Below are positions 5,655 to 14,416 of a DNA stretch of 20,022 nucleotides, piece by piece (position 1 is the stretch's first letter; the number at the start of each line of letters is the position of its first letter). The notes beneath the pieces are model-generated. The model made no database searches. It saw only the letters and a list, made by a program, of their open reading frames with translations, and was not told the origin of the DNA. The DNA is taken from positions 1 through 20,022 of IMG/VR virus record IMGVR_UViG_3300009181_000464; one strand, 5' to 3'. The position numbers were made by a program, and so were the translations under genes. The stretch comes from a virus.

Positions 5655-5849
5655 TTAACCTCGTTTCTGATTAGCGACTTTAGCCAAATTACGGCCCATA
5701 GACATCATGTCTGCATTGGTTTTGCCGCCCTTGCCTTTGCCACCCTTAGCACCACTTTCAATACCAACGGTTGGGCCGCTATCACCAAGGTTTGTGCCTT
5801 TAGTTTTACCTGATTTGGTAACGCCATCTGCTGCTTTTCTGAATCCCAT
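5655..5849 (-). CDS. Small basic protein with N-terminal ADG...GKTKG motif
   Basis: A 64-residue Gly/Lys-rich protein (GAKGGKGKGGKTNADMMSMG). Residues 6-18 (AADGVTKSGKTKG) match the motif found at the C-terminus of the proteins at 7721-7981, 7985-8527 and 9236-9550, but here it is at the N-terminus. No hydrophobic core, so it is likely disordered or nucleic-acid binding. Start: ATG at 5849 preceded by TAGGAG, in which TAG is the stop codon of the zinc-ribbon gene, with a nine-base gap. It ends in Lys-Arg-Gly, codons that carry the Shine-Dalgarno site for the following gene. Function unknown. Confidence 0.75.
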   Translation of the reverse strand: MGFRKAADGVTKSGKTKGTNLGDSGPTVGIESGAKGGKGKGGKTNADMMSMGRNLAKVANQKRG

Positions 5850-5858
5850 TTTAATCTC

Positions 5859-6287
5859 CTAAGTAACTGTTACCGTAACTGTACCAACATATGTCGTTGC
5901 CACCAAGTAATTTGGTGTTAAAGACGCATCAAAAGTACTCGACCCACCAACTGGAGCCCAGCCCCATTGAATATCCCGAGAACCACCTGTAACGTAACCA
6001 GCAGCATCCGGGGCATTACTGGTTGAGTTAACTGTCTGCAATCCATTTGTACCAGCCGTGTAGTAAGTCGTATCTCTACGGGGATTACGCACAGCCTGTG
6101 GATCATCAACTGGATACATGCCTAGCAACAACTGCGGCTGATCTGGATCCCAGCACTCAGGACAAACAAGCAGATTGTAAATCTTGGTCTTCTGAATTTC
6201 TTTACGAAGCGCCGTTAGTTTGAACTGGAAGCCACAGCGATCGCACATGGCGATACTGTTCTTACCGGAAGCAAACCTATTGCCCAT
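5859..6287 (-). CDS. Zinc-ribbon phage protein
   Basis: A 142-residue protein. Cys15, Cys18, Cys42 and Cys45 form a CxxC...CxxC pattern (MCDRCGFQF, VCPECWDPD) expected to bind one zinc ion. It is followed by PQLLLGMYPVDDPQAVRNPR, a segment I recognise from uncharacterised proteins of many tailed phages. The remaining half is Gly/Thr/Ser-rich and ends in beta-type sequence (YLVATTYVGTVTVTVT), perhaps a tail that assembles with a virion partner. The ATG directly abuts the upstream stop (TAAATG) with only a weak Shine-Dalgarno site, so it probably relies on re-initiation after the connector gene. A structural role next to the connector genes is inferred; DNA binding is possible but unsupported. 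Confidence 0.82.
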   Translation of the reverse strand: MGNRFASGKNSIAMCDRCGFQFKLTALRKEIQKTKIYNLLVCPECWDPDQPQLLLGMYPVDDPQAVRNPRRDTTYYTAGTNGLQTVNSTSNAPDAAGYVTGGSRDIQWGWAPVGGSSTFDASLTPNYLVATTYVGTVTVTVT

Positions 6288-7217
6288 TTACGTACCGCTT
6301 CCAATAAACATTTGCCTCGGTACAAACCGCAAAGAAGCATGTTCCTGATCTTCGCCAGCAGCTAATTGCCAAGCCTCATCGTATTGAGCTTTTAGGACGT
6401 CCAGACGCTGAGCGCCATTCTCTACCTTAAGTGCAAGATAGTAGGCGAGTCCAGCAACCAAGCAGGGCAGGAAACGGAAAGGTACATCCATAGTCCTAGT
6501 GCCGCCACCTGCGTCATCAATACGGCGCATACGCCAGTAAACGAATTGGTAGGTTTGTGATCCATCGGGAGTCGGCCAAACAGTTACGGATGGCAAGTTT
6601 TGTGAGTAAACAGCAGCGGCAGTTGAGTGCGCCACTGCAGTTGTATTATTTTGGCCACGGAAACAGTTCATCAACTGATTGCCGCTGATGTAGCCGTACT
6701 GAACAGTTTCAGATTCAATCAGGACAAAACCAGTGGTAGCCAAACCAACTGTAGAAGTCAGTGTGATTGTGGTATCTGTGGCTGAGATTCCACCATTTAA
6801 TGTAGTCCCTACGGACGATGTTTGGCCGTCTAAACGCTGGAACCACACCTGAATTGGGCGGGCTTGCTGCAGTTTATTAGGGATGGTCGCATAGGTAGAA
6901 ACACTGATACGGGTAATTGTCAGGTCAGATTGCGTGGAAGAGTTACCCGCGCCCGTACGAATTACATGTTCTAGCAAATCCACAGTGTCATTCGGCAGCG
7001 CGTATGTAGCTAAACCTTGAGTAAAGGTAAGCGTCCCTTGCTCAAACGTCCACATGTTAATGCCACGGTTTGCCCAGTCTGCAAAAAGAAGATTCAAACT
7101 TCGTCTTGCAGTACGTAAGTCGTAGCCCGTGCGAAGTTCAGAGCCCGCACGCTCAAACGCTTCCTCAACGATCTCCGTGAGGTCAAGATTAAACGCTGCA
7201 ACTCCAGAAGTGGTCAT
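6288..7217 (-). CDS. Connector/tail-accessory-like structural protein with inserted beta-domain
   Basis: A 309-residue protein. The N-terminus (residues 11-58: LDLTEIVEEAFERAGSELRT, ARRSLNLLFADWANRGINMW) is a helical segment typical of the phage connector or tail-accessory proteins encoded between capsid and tail genes in podophages, comparable in role to P22 gp4-type factors. Residues about 138-205 (DTTITLTSTVGLATTGFVLI, NCFRGQNNTTAVAH) look like a small beta-sandwich inserted between RPIQVWFQRLDGQ and LPSVTVWPTPDGS. The C-terminal part (PFRFLPCLVAGLAYYLALKV, LDVLKAQYDEAWQLA) is helical again. ATG at 7217 overlaps the upstream stop (ATGA); the ribosome site is weak, so expression is likely coupled. 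Exact position in the tail machine is not determinable here. Confidence 0.82.
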   Translation of the reverse strand: MTTSGVAAFNLDLTEIVEEAFERAGSELRTGYDLRTARRSLNLLFADWANRGINMWTFEQGTLTFTQGLATYALPNDTVDLLEHVIRTGAGNSSTQSDLTITRISVSTYATIPNKLQQARPIQVWFQRLDGQTSSVGTTLNGGISATDTTITLTSTVGLATTGFVLIESETVQYGYISGNQLMNCFRGQNNTTAVAHSTAAAVYSQNLPSVTVWPTPDGSQTYQFVYWRMRRIDDAGGGTRTMDVPFRFLPCLVAGLAYYLALKVENGAQRLDVLKAQYDEAWQLAAGEDQEHASLRFVPRQMFIGSGT

Positions 7218-7447
7218 CTAAATCCCGCCGTTTTCTTTGCAATTGTTTTAGGTTGCGCTACAAACTGCTTTCCAGCTTGTTTACCTGCACGTTTTGCACG
7301 TGTGGTAGCGGCGTATTCTGATGGTGACAAAGACTTGATAGCTGCTTCAGGCAAGTATCTCTCCCCCGTCTTACTCGACGGTTTGCCAGACTTAGTGCGC
7401 CATTTCTGGTCGCCCCAGTCTTTAAGAGACTTTTGCGGAGCTTTCAA
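7214..7447 (-). CDS. Small basic phage protein (DUF5872-like), TTG start
   Basis: A 77-residue, very basic protein. The core SLKDWGDQKWRTKSGKPSSK, then TGERYLPEAAIKSLSPSEYA and ATTRAKRAGKQAGKQF, is a pattern I know from small proteins of phages and large DNA viruses (possibly DUF5872, name uncertain). The only start in frame before the conserved core is TTG at 7447, because a TAG in the same frame lies at 7451-7453. The Shine-Dalgarno match is weak (GAGA close to the TTG). It overlaps the upstream gene by 26 bases in another frame. A +1 frameshift from that gene is a less likely alternative. Its stop overlaps the connector gene's ATG. Function unknown; charge suggests nucleic-acid contact. 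Confidence 0.72.
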   Translation of the reverse strand: MKAPQKSLKDWGDQKWRTKSGKPSSKTGERYLPEAAIKSLSPSEYAATTRAKRAGKQAGKQFVAQPKTIAKKTAGFR

Positions 7448-7718
7448 TCTCTATACCCCCACCGGAAGCTTTATACTTTTTAGCGACAAGCTGGGCCTTG
7501 CGTGCTGACCATTGTCCTGCACCCGTACCTTGCGTAGCTGCGGCCTTTACCTGAGACACAATCCGCTTACGCAGACTGGGTTTAGTGTAGTTGCCAGCCG
7601 CATTTACTTTGCCGCCTTCAGCATACTGTGTGAAATCAGTGTTATCCCGACGAGCTTTACGCTTGCCCTTGGGCATTTTGCTTGGGTTAATATCACCCAT
7701 TCCTCGGGATGCGATCAT
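7422..7718 (-). CDS. Small basic phage protein with QWSARKAQ motif
   Basis: A 98-residue basic protein. The conserved part is residues about 44-88: NYTKPSLRKRIVSQVKAAAT, then GAGQWSARKAQLVAKKYKAS and GGG. This pattern recurs in small proteins of many tailed phages, often next to a gene of the type found immediately downstream here (SLKDW/GERYLP). Its biochemical role is unknown to me. The helical, Arg/Lys-rich core suggests a capsid-interior or DNA-contacting protein. ATG at 7718 is two bases after the upstream stop. An ATG at 7700 (residue 7) is an alternative; neither has a well-placed Shine-Dalgarno site, so coupling is likely. Confidence 0.78.
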   Translation of the reverse strand: MIASRGMGDINPSKMPKGKRKARRDNTDFTQYAEGGKVNAAGNYTKPSLRKRIVSQVKAAATQGTGAGQWSARKAQLVAKKYKASGGGIEIESSAKVS

Positions 7719-7720
7719 AG

Positions 7721-7981
7721 TTACACCATCTTTCCGCGTGTTCTACCTTTGGTACAGCAGCCATCGGCGCGGCTAGAAGCGGTCATACCACCCTTAGCTT
7801 TTTTGCTTACGGATGCGCCATCAACGTCTTGCGGCACGGGCATGCCTTCACGGAAGACTGAGTCTTTAGGTGCGGTCTTCTTAGGTGCTGGTGCCTTGGG
7901 CGCGGACTTTTTAGAAGCCGGTACGCCTTCAGGGTCTGTGGGTGGTTTACCCATTTCAGCAGTGTAGACTGGATCGGCCAT
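7721..7981 (-). CDS. Lys/Pro/Ala-rich protein with C-terminal ADG...KGRTRGK tail
   Basis: An 86-residue protein. The N-terminal half is a low-complexity Lys/Pro/Ala stretch (ASKKSAPKAPAPKKTAPKDS) like histone H1-type tails. The centre is FREGMPVPQDVDGASVSKKA. The C-terminus (residues 71-86, RADGCCTKGRTRGKMV) is nearly the same as that of the protein encoded just upstream, and the two share long identical base runs here (ATCTTTCCGCG, TAGAAGCGG on the plus strand). That points to duplication or recombination between neighbours. ATG is three bases after the upstream stop and lacks a close Shine-Dalgarno site. Probably disordered. Function unknown. Confidence 0.77.
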   Translation of the reverse strand: MADPVYTAEMGKPPTDPEGVPASKKSAPKAPAPKKTAPKDSVFREGMPVPQDVDGASVSKKAKGGMTASSRADGCCTKGRTRGKMV

Positions 7982-7984
7982 GGC

Positions 7985-8527
7985 TTAGCACATCTTTCCG
8001 CGAGTCTTGCCTTTTACAGCAATACCATCAGCGCGTTTAGAAGCGGAGGAAGAAGTCATACCACCGGAAGCCATCTTTTTAGCGGCTCCGCCTTTTTTCA
8101 TACCCATACCAGAACCGCTAAAATCAACGCTGTTTCCACCACGGTTTTTACCGGCAAAGGCGGCACGCAGACGCTCGCCAACAGAGCGCGTATCAGTTGT
8201 GCTACCGCTTCTAGCACGCTCACGGCTTAACTTCATACGATCAGATAAAGACAGCTTTGTTTCGTCAGCAGGGGCTGCTTTAGCGGCGGCTTTAGATTCA
8301 GCCTTTGGAGCAGCTTTAGGGGCGGCTTTGGGCATATTTTTAGCAGCGGCTTTGGCCGTAGGTGTTACGGTTCTACCAGAACCTGCATCGCCAAATTGCC
8401 CGGCTTCTTCCGCAGCGCTACCATCGCCCATTTCTTTGAGCGGAGCTTTAGGCTCTGCTTCATAAGCTTTGTTAGCCGCTTCCATTTCGTCTACATCACT
8501 ACCAGTGGCACCGTTATAACGTTTCAT
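7985..8527 (-). CDS. Ala/Lys-rich H1-like protein with C-terminal ADG...KGKTRGK tail
   Basis: A 180-residue protein in three parts. Residues 1-50 are acidic (DVDEMEAANKAYEAEPKAPL). Residues about 55-90 are Ala/Lys/Pro repeats (AAAKNMPKAAPKAAPKAESK) resembling histone H1 or bacterial H1-like tails. From about 92 comes a basic helical part (LSLSDRMKLSRERARSGS, SVGERLRAAFAGKNRGG), then a GMGMKKGGAAKKMASGGM segment and the terminal RADGIAVKGKTRGKMC. The KKGGAAK segment also occurs in the next gene upstream (8543-9052). Strong Shine-Dalgarno site (AAGGAG, six bases before ATG), so this is likely an abundant product. DNA binding or packaging inside the capsid is a guess from composition. Confidence 0.8.
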   Translation of the reverse strand: MKRYNGATGSDVDEMEAANKAYEAEPKAPLKEMGDGSAAEEAGQFGDAGSGRTVTPTAKAAAKNMPKAAPKAAPKAESKAAAKAAPADETKLSLSDRMKLSRERARSGSTTDTRSVGERLRAAFAGKNRGGNSVDFSGSGMGMKKGGAAKKMASGGMTSSSASKRADGIAVKGKTRGKMC

Positions 8528-8542
8528 GTTTAGCTCCTTAAG

Positions 8543-9052
8543 TTAGCAGGGCCTGCCGCCCATGTTCATTTTTACTATTTTGCCTTTGGTTTTACCCTTA
8601 GACGCAACGCCATTTGGTGTCTTACCAGTCTTTACAGGAGCCATACCGGTTGGCTTTCCCGCCTTAGAAAATTGCATAAATTTAGCTGCACCACCTTTTT
8701 TAAGCGTTAAAGATGTACCCTTGCCGCCTTTATGCTCTTGGGCATCATGCTGTTTAAAGGCTTTTTTAATCATAGCCTTGTCTTGCATTTTGTCCATCTT
8801 CATGTCTTCTTTCATGTCGCTCTTAGCCATACCGCCGCCTTTCATGATTGACATCTTCCCATGAAGTGTCTTTGGTTTGTTAACTTTTTGAAGGTCAGGA
8901 CGAGCGTATCCGCCAGAACCAAACTTCTTTCCTTTATCCGCTTCATCAAAGTCTTTTCCAACACTTTGCGGTATCCCAACTTTTTTGGCAAATGCAGGGT
9001 TATGTGCAATTGCTGCCATAAAGTTATGTTGTTTTTTAGAACTACTCGGCAT
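8543..9052 (-). CDS. Met/Lys-rich protein with conserved KKQHNFM N-terminus and KGKTKGK motif
   Basis: A 169-residue basic protein. The N-terminus (SKKQHNFMAAIAHNPAFAKK, then VGIPQSVGKDFDEADKGKKF) is a module I recognise from uncharacterised tailed-phage proteins. The centre (MKEDMKMDKMQDKAMIKKAF) is Met/Lys-rich and probably helical; 14 Met in total is high. KKGGAAK is shared with the downstream protein. Residues 145-160 (TPNGVASKGKTKGKIV) carry the cluster's common motif, here followed by nine more residues ending GGRPC. Start: ATG with AAGGA six bases upstream, overlapping the holin-like gene by 11 bases. Function unknown. Same-family neighbours suggest a shared target or compartment. Confidence 0.8.
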   Translation of the reverse strand: MPSSSKKQHNFMAAIAHNPAFAKKVGIPQSVGKDFDEADKGKKFGSGGYARPDLQKVNKPKTLHGKMSIMKGGGMAKSDMKEDMKMDKMQDKAMIKKAFKQHDAQEHKGGKGTSLTLKKGGAAKFMQFSKAGKPTGMAPVKTGKTPNGVASKGKTKGKIVKMNMGGRPC

Positions 9053-9239
9053 CTTTTTTCCTTCGAATTATTTCAGCAAAGGGTTTACCCGCAATCATTT
9101 CAGTGATCCGCATGCCTGTCCACACAATCGTAAACAGTGCGGCAACTGCAGGAAGTAGTTGCATTACCGTGCCGATAGCCGTAACAGCGGCAACGCCATC
9201 CGCTACATTCTTTAAGGTTTCAACGTTTTCTTGGTTCAT
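9042..9239 (-). CDS. Small membrane protein, holin candidate
   Basis: A 65-residue protein with a hydrophobic stretch covering residues about 14-49 (GVAAVTAIGTVMQLLPAVAA, then LFTIVWTGMRITEMIAG). It could form one long or two short membrane segments with a Pro at position 30. A basic C-terminus follows (IIRRKKDAE). Size, topology and charge pattern fit small phage holins, which time lysis by opening the inner membrane. No lysis enzyme is seen in the window, so this is a candidate only; a virion membrane protein is an alternative. I chose ATG at 9239 over the upstream ATG at 9275 because it overlaps the preceding stop (ATGA) and has AAGGG eight bases ahead. Confidence 0.75.
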   Translation of the reverse strand: MNQENVETLKNVADGVAAVTAIGTVMQLLPAVAALFTIVWTGMRITEMIAGKPFAEIIRRKKDAE

Positions 9240-9550
9240 ACCATACGCCCTTTTGTCTTGCCTTTGGTAGCACAACCATCAGCCGCAGTTACATAACCGC
9301 CATCAGCACAATTCCACGCTCTCAAAGATTTATTAATCCTTGAATCTGGGTCGTTGGCTGTCTTTGCGCTGGTCAGCTTCTTTTTCATTCCACTCATCCT
9401 CGCACAGAAAGAGTCGCGCCGGGAGCCGCCTTCGGGCTGGGGCCGTTTCAAATTCATGCCTTGCGCTTTGGCAGAGGCTCGCCCCTTGGCGTTCAAACCA
9501 CCCTCGGGGTTCTTGCCTTCTGCTCTCTGCCATGCGGGACTCTTAGCCAT
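9236..9550 (-). CDS. DUF6321-like protein with C-terminal ADG...KGKTKGR tail
   Basis: A 104-residue basic protein. Residues 1-80 (SPAWQRAEGKNPEGGLNAKG, RASAKAQGMNLKRPQPEGGS, RRDSFCARMSGMKKKLTSAK, NDPDSRINKSLRAWNC) match the DUF6321 family, known from many tailed phages and without established function. Residues 89-104 (AADGCATKGKTKGRMV) add the same tail found on two other proteins in this cluster, so the tail looks like a transferable module on an unrelated core. ATG overlaps the end of the upstream gene by eight bases with a weak ribosome site, and the stop overlaps the holin-like gene's ATG. Virion or packaging role is inferred from position. Confidence 0.85.
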   Translation of the reverse strand: MAKSPAWQRAEGKNPEGGLNAKGRASAKAQGMNLKRPQPEGGSRRDSFCARMSGMKKKLTSAKTANDPDSRINKSLRAWNCADGGYVTAADGCATKGKTKGRMV

Positions 9551-10553: not shown

Positions 10554-11465
10554 TCAGGACGAACCGGGTGAGCCAAAAGTGCCCAACGGATCAGACCAGC
10601 CGAAGCTATAACGCTCACGGGCTTTGTAACGAACGTTACCTGTGTCGAAGTCACCGTCCATCTTGTTCTCCAAAGGAGAGCGGATGAAATGCTTCAGACC
10701 GTTAGGCACATCAGTAGTCAAATACCAGCCGTTTGTATCGGTCAGATAGTGATTAATGGTGTAGCCTTCAGGGATTGAACCGTTGTTCTTTAACGCATTG
10801 ATGTCGTTGTCAGTTGTACCAACGCGGAGGCTGGTTTCCAACAAACGAGTAGCAACGAATTGCAGAGCTGGGGGAACAATCAATTTCTTAGGCTTAGCAG
10901 CGATCAAAAGACCACGCTCGTCTGTCCAAGCAGCGATTTGAATAACGGCGGCTTCCAAAGAAGTCTCGTTCAAGTCAGCGGCTGTAGAAGGACGGTTGCT
11001 GTTTGTGCCACCAGAAACCAAGGGGTGGGCAGTGCTATACAAAGCAACGCCGTCGCCACCGGGGTAGGCTGCGCTGAAACCGTTGTTGATAACGGCGGCA
11101 GCTTTAACCTGCTTGGTGTATGCCATAGCACGAGCCAAAGCTTTGGTGTAACGAGCAGACAGTGAGTCATACAAGTTATCTTCCACAGCTTCTTCAGTGA
11201 TGGAGAAGCCTAAAGCGATAGTCTCGTGGTTGTAGCGAGTTGTCCATGCCTCTTGTGCATTGTCATAAGCGATGGCAGAGCCCTCGTTCTTAACAGGAGC
11301 AGCAGAGAAACCAGACAGTTTGGTCTCTTCTTCGAAGGAACGCTCAGAGGTTTCAGTCTCATAAATTTCTTTATGTTCTTCACCGTAGCGTGCGTACTCC
11401 ATGCCGAACAAAGCGTTCAGACCGGGAAGGAGTTCCTTAAGTAGTTGTGCGCGTGAAATTGCCAT
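10554..11465 (-). CDS. Major capsid protein (Mu gpT-like, HK97 fold)
   Basis: A 303-residue protein. The N-terminus (LLKELLPGLNALFGMEYARY, ETETSERSFEEETKLSGF) and the centre (YNHETIALGFSITEEAVEDN, LYDSLSARYTKALARAMAYT, NNGFSAAYPGGDGVALYSTA) match the Mu-like major head subunit family, whose members adopt the HK97 capsid fold. The C-terminal part contains KKLIVPPALQFVATRLLETS and GWYLTTDVPNGLKHFIRSPL, typical of the family's later domain. Length fits a major capsid protein without a separate scaffold domain, agreeing with a scaffold-like gene upstream. Strong Shine-Dalgarno site (TAAGGAG, where TAA is the upstream gene's stop) and a strong terminator after the gene fit a highly produced protein. 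Confidence 0.93.
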   Translation of the reverse strand: MAISRAQLLKELLPGLNALFGMEYARYGEEHKEIYETETSERSFEEETKLSGFSAAPVKNEGSAIAYDNAQEAWTTRYNHETIALGFSITEEAVEDNLYDSLSARYTKALARAMAYTKQVKAAAVINNGFSAAYPGGDGVALYSTAHPLVSGGTNSNRPSTAADLNETSLEAAVIQIAAWTDERGLLIAAKPKKLIVPPALQFVATRLLETSLRVGTTDNDINALKNNGSIPEGYTINHYLTDTNGWYLTTDVPNGLKHFIRSPLENKMDGDFDTGNVRYKARERYSFGWSDPLGTFGSPGSS

Positions 11466-13815: not shown

Positions 13816-14226
13816 TTATGCTGCACGTGTAATTCCACGGGGGTCTTCCACAACTGCTTCAACCGAATCATCATTGAGGATACGGAATTCACGGCCATGG
13901 ATCTTCAGACGGGTGCCTGAATTTGGGCGGCAGATGATGAAATCACCTTCCTTGCAACTCGGCCCGCTAGGGAAACGAGTGGTATCTTTATAGCAGTCAG
14001 GCCCAAGCTTGACGACAAATAGAACGGGAGTGAGTACTTCCTCAAAATGCATTGATTGGCTGGATTTTATAATTCCAACCTCACTATCTGCGTACTCCTG
14101 CATAGCTTCAGGCACCACACACAAAATGTGAAATGTACGTGGGTCAGGCAACTGCTTAGCTTTGTCTTCAGATGGCTTATTAAGAATGCCAGACAAGTCA
14201 ACAGCAGCGAGGTCAAATTCAGTCAT
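13816..14226 (-). CDS. GroES-like co-chaperonin (Cpn10)
   Basis: A 136-residue protein. Residues about 30-133 follow the Cpn10 pattern: an initial strand (RTFHILCVVPEAMQ), a loop where GroES has its GroEL-binding mobile loop (YADSEVGIIKSSQSMHFEEV), a beta-barrel return (LTPVLFVVKLGPDCY), the CKEGDFIICRPNSGTRLKI segment equivalent to VGDIV in GroES, and the final strands (REFRILNDDSVEAVVEDPRG). It probably acts with the host GroEL, or replaces host GroES, to fold the capsid protein, as T4 gp31 does. An upstream ATG at 14256 exists. I chose 14226 because GGAG lies seven bases before it and because it slightly overlaps the upstream gene's end. Its stop forms part of the scaffold gene's ribosome site. 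Confidence 0.85.
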   Translation of the reverse strand: MTEFDLAAVDLSGILNKPSEDKAKQLPDPRTFHILCVVPEAMQEYADSEVGIIKSSQSMHFEEVLTPVLFVVKLGPDCYKDTTRFPSGPSCKEGDFIICRPNSGTRLKIHGREFRILNDDSVEAVVEDPRGITRAA

Positions 14227-14416
14227 CAGATTTCTCCATTTTTTGCACGAGGTCATTAATAATGTTTTCTGCTAGGTTAAGACCTCGGATTACCCCACAG
14301 ATACTTCGATACTCTTCAATGTCAGCGGCTCTGCCGTTGGCAAGATGAAAAGCTTGCTCTTCTTTTAACTTCTCAATCTCTTTAGCGACGTGCGCTAATA
14401 GTTTGTAGTCGTTCAA
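14219..14416 (-). CDS. Small helical protein of the portal-scaffold interval, TTG start
   Basis: A 65-residue, mostly helical protein (LAHVAKEIEKLKEEQAFHLA, then NGRAADIEEYRSICGVIRGL and NLAENIINDLVQKMEK). The HLANGRAADxxxYRxxCGxIRGL pattern is one I know from small unannotated genes beside phage portal genes. The start is TTG at 14416, which overlaps the portal stop as TTGA and has a good ribosome site (GGGAG a few bases before). No ATG is available near the N-terminus of the conserved part. Expression is probably tied to portal translation. A role as an assembly factor or portal partner is inferred from position only. Confidence 0.78.
   Translation of the reverse strand: MNDYKLLAHVAKEIEKLKEEQAFHLANGRAADIEEYRSICGVIRGLNLAENIINDLVQKMEKSDD

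Follow-up and report, generated by a model that had tools for sequence, protein, structure and literature searches.

In phage T4, the capsid-targeting sequence (CTS) of the internal proteins is N-terminal and is removed by the prohead protease. The targeting peptide of encapsulin systems is short and mostly C-terminal, is carried by unrelated cargo proteins encoded beside an HK97-fold shell, is N-terminal in some of the cargo and has the consensus SDGSLGIGSLKRS (PMC8346489). The subject of this analysis is another terminal peptide, encoded in a virus record of 20,022 bases (IMG/VR record IMGVR_UViG_3300009181_000464; the whole of this stretch is called the window). On the minus strand of the window lie five copies of the motif, and in three proteins the C-terminal residues read ADGxxxKG[KR]T[KR]G[KR]xx. 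One phage lineage carries this peptide of roughly 16 residues as a modular tag, mostly C-terminal and sometimes tandem or N-terminal, attached to small, basic and mostly unrelated proteins. The tag behaves like an address label, and the destination that we infer for it, the virus head, is a probable one.

A detachable motif at the ends of small proteins

The five motif sites listed in an earlier note on this DNA are all real and lie at the positions given there, as seen from translation of the window and from a shuffle test in which a degenerate DNA pattern for ADGxxxKG[..]T[..]G[..] had three matches in the window, compared with 0.00 for 100 dinucleotide shuffles. The pattern matches are C-terminal tags, encoded (like all the motifs described here) on the minus strand. 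The first closes a DUF6321 protein of 104 amino acids (aa) at 9236..9550 (Pfam PF19846, E=4.3e-18, residues 12-79); this tag, AADGCATKGKTKGRMV, lies at 9239..9286 and the protein ends in ADGCATKGKTKGRMV before the stop codon. The second and third close proteins to which family searches assigned no family: an Ala/Lys-rich basic protein of 180 aa at 7985..8527 (tag RADGIAVKGKTRGKMC at 7988..8035, protein end ADGIAVKGKTRGKMC and stop) and a Lys/Pro-rich basic protein of 86 aa at 7721..7981 (tag RADGCCTKGRTRGKMV at 7724..7771, protein end ADGCCTKGRTRGKMV and stop). A protein of 169 aa with a KKQHNFM module (8543..9052; matches to PHROGs 16759, 22033 and 25121 at residues 1-43) belongs to an extended class, its motif region PNGVASKGKTKGKIV at 8573..8620 being read as PNGVASKGKTKGK and followed by 11 more residues. 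Finally, a 64-aa protein of a conserved family (5655..5849; 26-sequence alignment) has an N-terminal motif, MGFRKAADGVTKSGKTKGT, with AADGVTKSGKTKGT near its N-terminus. Nothing useful came from scans for NCBIfam families, Rfam families or tRNAs.

Across 214 loci (1.8 Mb) there are 393 occurrences of a relaxed form of the protein motif and 0 of its reversal. Exactly two residues separate the motif from the stop codon in 265 of 380 hits; an extended class of about 90 hits lies 9-14 residues before the stop, has endings such as KMxxGGKC and is common in relatives, and the third class is N-terminal. The terminal consensus is SAS[KSR]RADG[CI]A[TQV][KR]G[KH]T[KR]G[KR][MFI][VC], in which the conservation of residues fixed in the search pattern itself is overstated, the hits coming from loci chosen by that pattern. 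In loci picked by DUF6321 and not by the motif, the C-termini of the other open reading frames (ORFs) are sharply bimodal: on the coding strand 80 of them reach 8 or 9 points out of 9 and none has 6 or 7, and on the opposite strand no C-terminus scores above 5. In the N-terminal family (60-68 residues), A7, G9, G14, T16 and G18 are invariant across the 26 aligned sequences, a collection that itself required part of the D-G/T pattern; that the same residues are invariant in this family argues for selection on the peptide. Some proteins contain two copies of the motif (L086, L108, L128 and L153). In AlphaFold models, built from shallow alignments, the motif is unstructured, with a predicted local distance difference test score (pLDDT) of about 38-53, and the mean pLDDT is low for the DUF6321-plus-tail protein (58) and for the 64-aa family (59). 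This predicted disorder and the tandem copies fit a short linear binding motif.

Most tails have one cysteine, at -12 or -1 and rarely at both, an association whose p-value is optimistic because the sequences are related. A beta-hairpin, prompted by the covariation of -12 and -1, was rejected, the other expected pairs not being outstanding and the model having no hairpin. The single tail cysteine was seen to shift among positions -12, -4 and -1. Additionally, a second mini-motif, [KR]x[YF]xxGG (e.g. KRYDEGG), opens about 9% of carriers and 1.3% of other same-strand ORFs (it was seen in L195, L186, L089, L162 and others).

The 354 carrier cores fall into about 143 BLAST clusters, 108 of which are singletons, a rough clustering given the short, low-complexity bodies and the chaining of one cluster of 111. 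For ten carriers, comparison with PHROG gave one weak holin hit and no other match. At 66.2 bits against a curated cut-off of 28.5, the body of the 9236-9550 protein clearly belongs to DUF6321 (PF19846), and the tag lies outside the Pfam domain, which stops at residue 79. Since DUF6321 occurs both with the tag, in the near relatives of the window, and without it, in Planktothrix phage Pag-Yong1 and in HTVC115P, the tag is detachable. DUF6321 matches the C-terminal ends of PHROG profiles 99-928 residues long and so itself behaves as a C-terminal module. It forms the end of S-CREM2 gp137, which was detected in virions by mass spectrometry with four peptides (PMC10665884), and it also ends an Sf-FS3 protein annotated as structural. 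The 169-aa protein opens with the KKQHNFM module (8924-9052, minus strand), of which 43 residues match phiKZ gp165.1 at 79% identity. This module, too, seems to be terminal and detachable; it begins PHROGs 22033 and 25121, which are named virion structural protein. By sequence, no solved structure resembling the capsid, portal, DUF6321 or KKQHNFM proteins was found.

It could be argued that the carriers are one diverged gene family, in which disordered bodies drifted beyond recognition, only the C-terminus was left and nothing moved. Low-complexity bodies evolve fast, the clustering of such short sequences is as rough as noted above, and a KxGG element stands upstream of the tag in 82% of carriers as compared with 12% of other same-strand ORFs. 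Such an origin is nevertheless improbable, since DUF6321 and KKQHNFM, two different conserved modules, are each also found untagged, the motif is found at the opposite end in the N-terminal family and, in locus L127, a tail was copied between genes with different bodies.

Restriction to one phage lineage and one genomic slot

A scan of IMG/VR with the DNA pattern gave at least 120 stretches, and a frame-shifted control pattern with one base fewer gave a single match (L002), a chance match in a tail-protein gene. In bacteria and archaea (84,980 species genomes), the pattern is present in 18 stretches, among which phage-like tails are found only in L198, L200, L203 and L212; these four look like phage contigs within assembled genomes, and L203 holds a tagged DUF6321 gene with capsid-adaptor neighbours. 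Relatives of the structural genes of the window were found in 103 of the 104 motif-chosen loci, with capsid proteins 76-92% identical, so that the tag belongs essentially to one lineage of freshwater phages. In Pag-Yong1, a more distant isolate (portal about 43% identical) and the only one in which a carrier was seen, a regular expression matched a single tail carrier (UMO75986.1), located in the same slot. Because the regular expression matched this tail, the negative results of tblastn with short tail queries and carriers against isolate phages, which gave no tail, are not evidence of absence. In the literature searched there was no mention of DUF6321, Pag-Yong1 or gp165.1, and no article mentioning the peptide concerns a phage.

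The slot is bordered upstream by the major capsid protein gene (10554..11465, minus strand; PHROG 371, E=1.6e-22) and downstream by a gene for a probable adaptor protein (6288..7217, minus strand), located between the capsid cassette and the tail genes and regarded as such because the annotated portal-adaptor of Pag-Yong1 has the corresponding place. Of 372 tails, 369 are encoded on the same strand as the structural genes, and of the 163 in loci that include both borders, 157 fall between the genes for the major capsid and adaptor proteins and the others just past the adaptor. Thirteen long contigs have 1-4 motifs each, and 0 for the control.

Other genes of this region were also noted. A probable holin of 65 aa with hydrophobic stretches is encoded at 9042-9239 (minus strand), its start overlapping the stop of the tagged DUF6321 gene in an ATGA. 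Most relatives retain two small basic untagged proteins, encoded in the window at 7214-7447 and 7422-7718 (PHROGs 14910 and 17747, unknown function), and DNA like 7214-7447 is present in HMO-2011 and in the Roseobacter phages CRP-13 and CRP-603. A GroES-like co-chaperonin is encoded at 13816-14256 (minus strand) between the portal and capsid genes; the same gene order is annotated in Pag-Yong1, DSL-LC04, HTVC027P and CRP-901.

Tag codons double as the ribosome-binding site of the next gene

Codons -4 and -3 of two tags in the window read GGAAAG, a Shine-Dalgarno-like sequence, at 7730..7735 for the gene starting at 7718 and at 7994..7999 for the gene starting at 7981 (both on the minus strand). 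The class statistics point the same way: GGA or GGG is used at Gly-4 in 169 of 258 terminal tails (66%), in 8 of 87 extended tails (9%) and in 0 of 9 N-terminal motifs, and at Gly-8 of terminal tails in only 10 of 258. The next start codon lies within -5 to +6 bases of the stop in 221 of the 258 terminal tails, and where it lies 7-12 bases away GGA/GGG is found in just 1 of 18. Additionally, the anti-Shine-Dalgarno pairing of these codons exceeds that of synonymous shuffles in the terminal class only. In the C-terminal class, the last codons of the tag thus double as the ribosome-binding site of the next gene. A peptide tag overlapping a Shine-Dalgarno sequence is a new finding; such double use of coding sequence is unusual, and it suggests how genes of a coupled operon can be swapped without losing translation of the next gene.

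These figures, together with three base-identical tail-stop-start junctions in L127, are also what would be expected if the conserved unit were mainly a nucleotide junction cassette (gene end, Shine-Dalgarno sequence and overlapping start) for swaps in a coupled operon, with the peptide as a by-product. However, the extended and N-terminal classes, which are unable to serve a next start, have a peptide that is just as fixed, other synonymous sites are free to vary, and a Shine-Dalgarno sequence takes about six bases and not sixteen codons. A unit that is mainly of this nature is very improbable, and as the sole explanation it is refuted by the classes lacking a Shine-Dalgarno role; it stands as a contributing function. 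Conservation of the peptide where such a role is impossible means that the tag is also selected as a peptide.

The tails of three L127 genes, whose bodies are unrelated, are identical at 45 of 45 bases, through the stop and the overlapping next start codon, which is recent copying at the DNA level. Outside L127, the tails of one genome are identical at a median of 31 of 45 bases and are old. Recent duplication had been suggested for the window tails at 7724-7771 and 7988-8035, and this was not borne out, as they agree at 28 of 45 bases (10 of 15 residues) compared with 29 of 45 bases for the other two pairs. On the other hand, the mobile tag on otherwise unrelated proteins that the earlier note proposed agrees with the base-identical tail on three unrelated genes of L127, with the many unrelated cores and with DUF6321 being found with and without the tail. 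It also agrees with two of the properties that the note had chosen as tests, for the motif is nearly absent from the 84,980 cellular genomes and not equally common there, and its terminal bias is evident both in the 265 of 380 hits and in the bimodal C-termini of the DUF6321-picked loci.

The residue at -10 agrees among tails at 0.52 within genomes against 0.23, and between DUF6321 tails and other tails at 0.47 against 0.24. Gene conversion was rejected as the general cause of this agreement, since outside L127 the codons of shared residues match little more within than between genomes. A shared residue with little extra codon agreement is what would be expected if the tails of one genome faced one partner.

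Proposed docking on the assembling head and comparison with known systems

In the reading that we favour, and in which our confidence is about even, the flexible tail would dock the carriers on the assembling head. It would bind a conserved partner there (capsid interior, scaffold or portal vertex), and the fast-changing accessory proteins so bound would be built into, or loaded into, the virion. This reading is preferred because of the confinement to one lineage and one slot, the fixed residues, the predicted disorder, the tandem copies and the virion links of two of the attached modules. The position in the head cassette and the indirect virion links likewise lend support to the earlier suggestion of a common destination for the carriers (e.g. 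capsid interior, scaffold, portal or DNA).

The main rival is a nucleic-acid-binding tail, a loop of Lys, Arg and Gly holding on to the phosphate backbone. The tagged proteins would then condense or coat either the genome or the RNA of the phage, and no protein receptor would be involved. The carriers are indeed very basic, with a median isoelectric point of 10.0, the K/R/G-rich tail resembles a phosphate-binding G-x4-G-K-T loop, and K and R interchange freely at -9, -5 and -3. Charge alone, however, requires neither the invariant D-G, G, T and G nor a fixed distance from the C-terminus, the tail has an invariant acidic residue, and confinement of such tails to one phage lineage is not expected; we consider nucleic-acid binding unlikely.

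Several observations weigh against docking on the head. The analysis came upon no receptor for the tag and no virion in which a tail carrier had been observed; the virion evidence concerns the attached modules and not the tag, and one case consists of four peptides. Three of 44 complete slots are without a tail, and the slot also houses a holin-like gene, so that position alone is no proof of a virion role. Residue -10 of the terminal tails is not shared by those of the extended class. Additionally, comparison of the tail residue classes with the phylogenies of the major capsid, portal, adaptor and other neighbouring proteins gave rho mostly <=0.1 (maximum 0.24), and since the classes follow no tested neighbour, there is no sign of co-evolution with a particular protein and no partner can be named.

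A fuller version of head docking, which we put forward tentatively and with considerable doubt, is that in an abundant group of freshwater phages a lineage-specific C-terminal label loads rapidly changing small proteins into heads for delivery to the host, its codons serving as the next ribosome-binding site and making new cargo genes pluggable. If head addressing is true, the tag would be a label for finding the packaged accessory proteins, mostly without a family match, of a common uncultured phage group, and its short peptide could be moved between proteins to load them into phage heads.

Regarding known sequence motifs, most tails contain the G-x4-G-K-T of a Walker A motif, or P-loop. The Walker A lysine is invariant, whereas its counterpart in the tails is K in 227, H in 20 and R in 4 (about 10% replaced); a P-loop sits between a beta strand and an alpha helix, whereas the tag lies about seven residues from the C-terminus, is modelled as unstructured and has no nucleoside triphosphatase (NTPase) fold around it. 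A P-loop NTPase was rejected on both grounds, the variable lysine and the missing strand-loop-helix context.

The closest likenesses are to the targeting peptides. The T4 CTS is a short conserved signal common to otherwise different small head proteins (PMC3012670), and here a short signal is common to about 143 core clusters in a head cassette. Unlike the CTS, the tag is mainly C-terminal (two residues before the stop in 265 of 380 hits), has an unrelated sequence and belongs to another phage group; no prohead protease was recognised in the window. Like the encapsulin targeting peptide, the tag is a terminal peptide on unrelated proteins encoded beside an HK97-fold shell gene, the fold of the window capsid protein resting on its PHROG match to major head proteins. 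The encapsulin consensus SDGSLGIGSLKRS is not shared, that of the tag being RADG[CI]A.[KR]GKT[KR]G[KR], and the shell is an encapsulin in one case and a phage capsid in the other, with binding of tag to shell only putative. The tag is a member of neither peptide family, as either its position or its consensus differs, and if docking on the assembling head is correct, it would work like the T4 CTS or the encapsulin targeting peptides.

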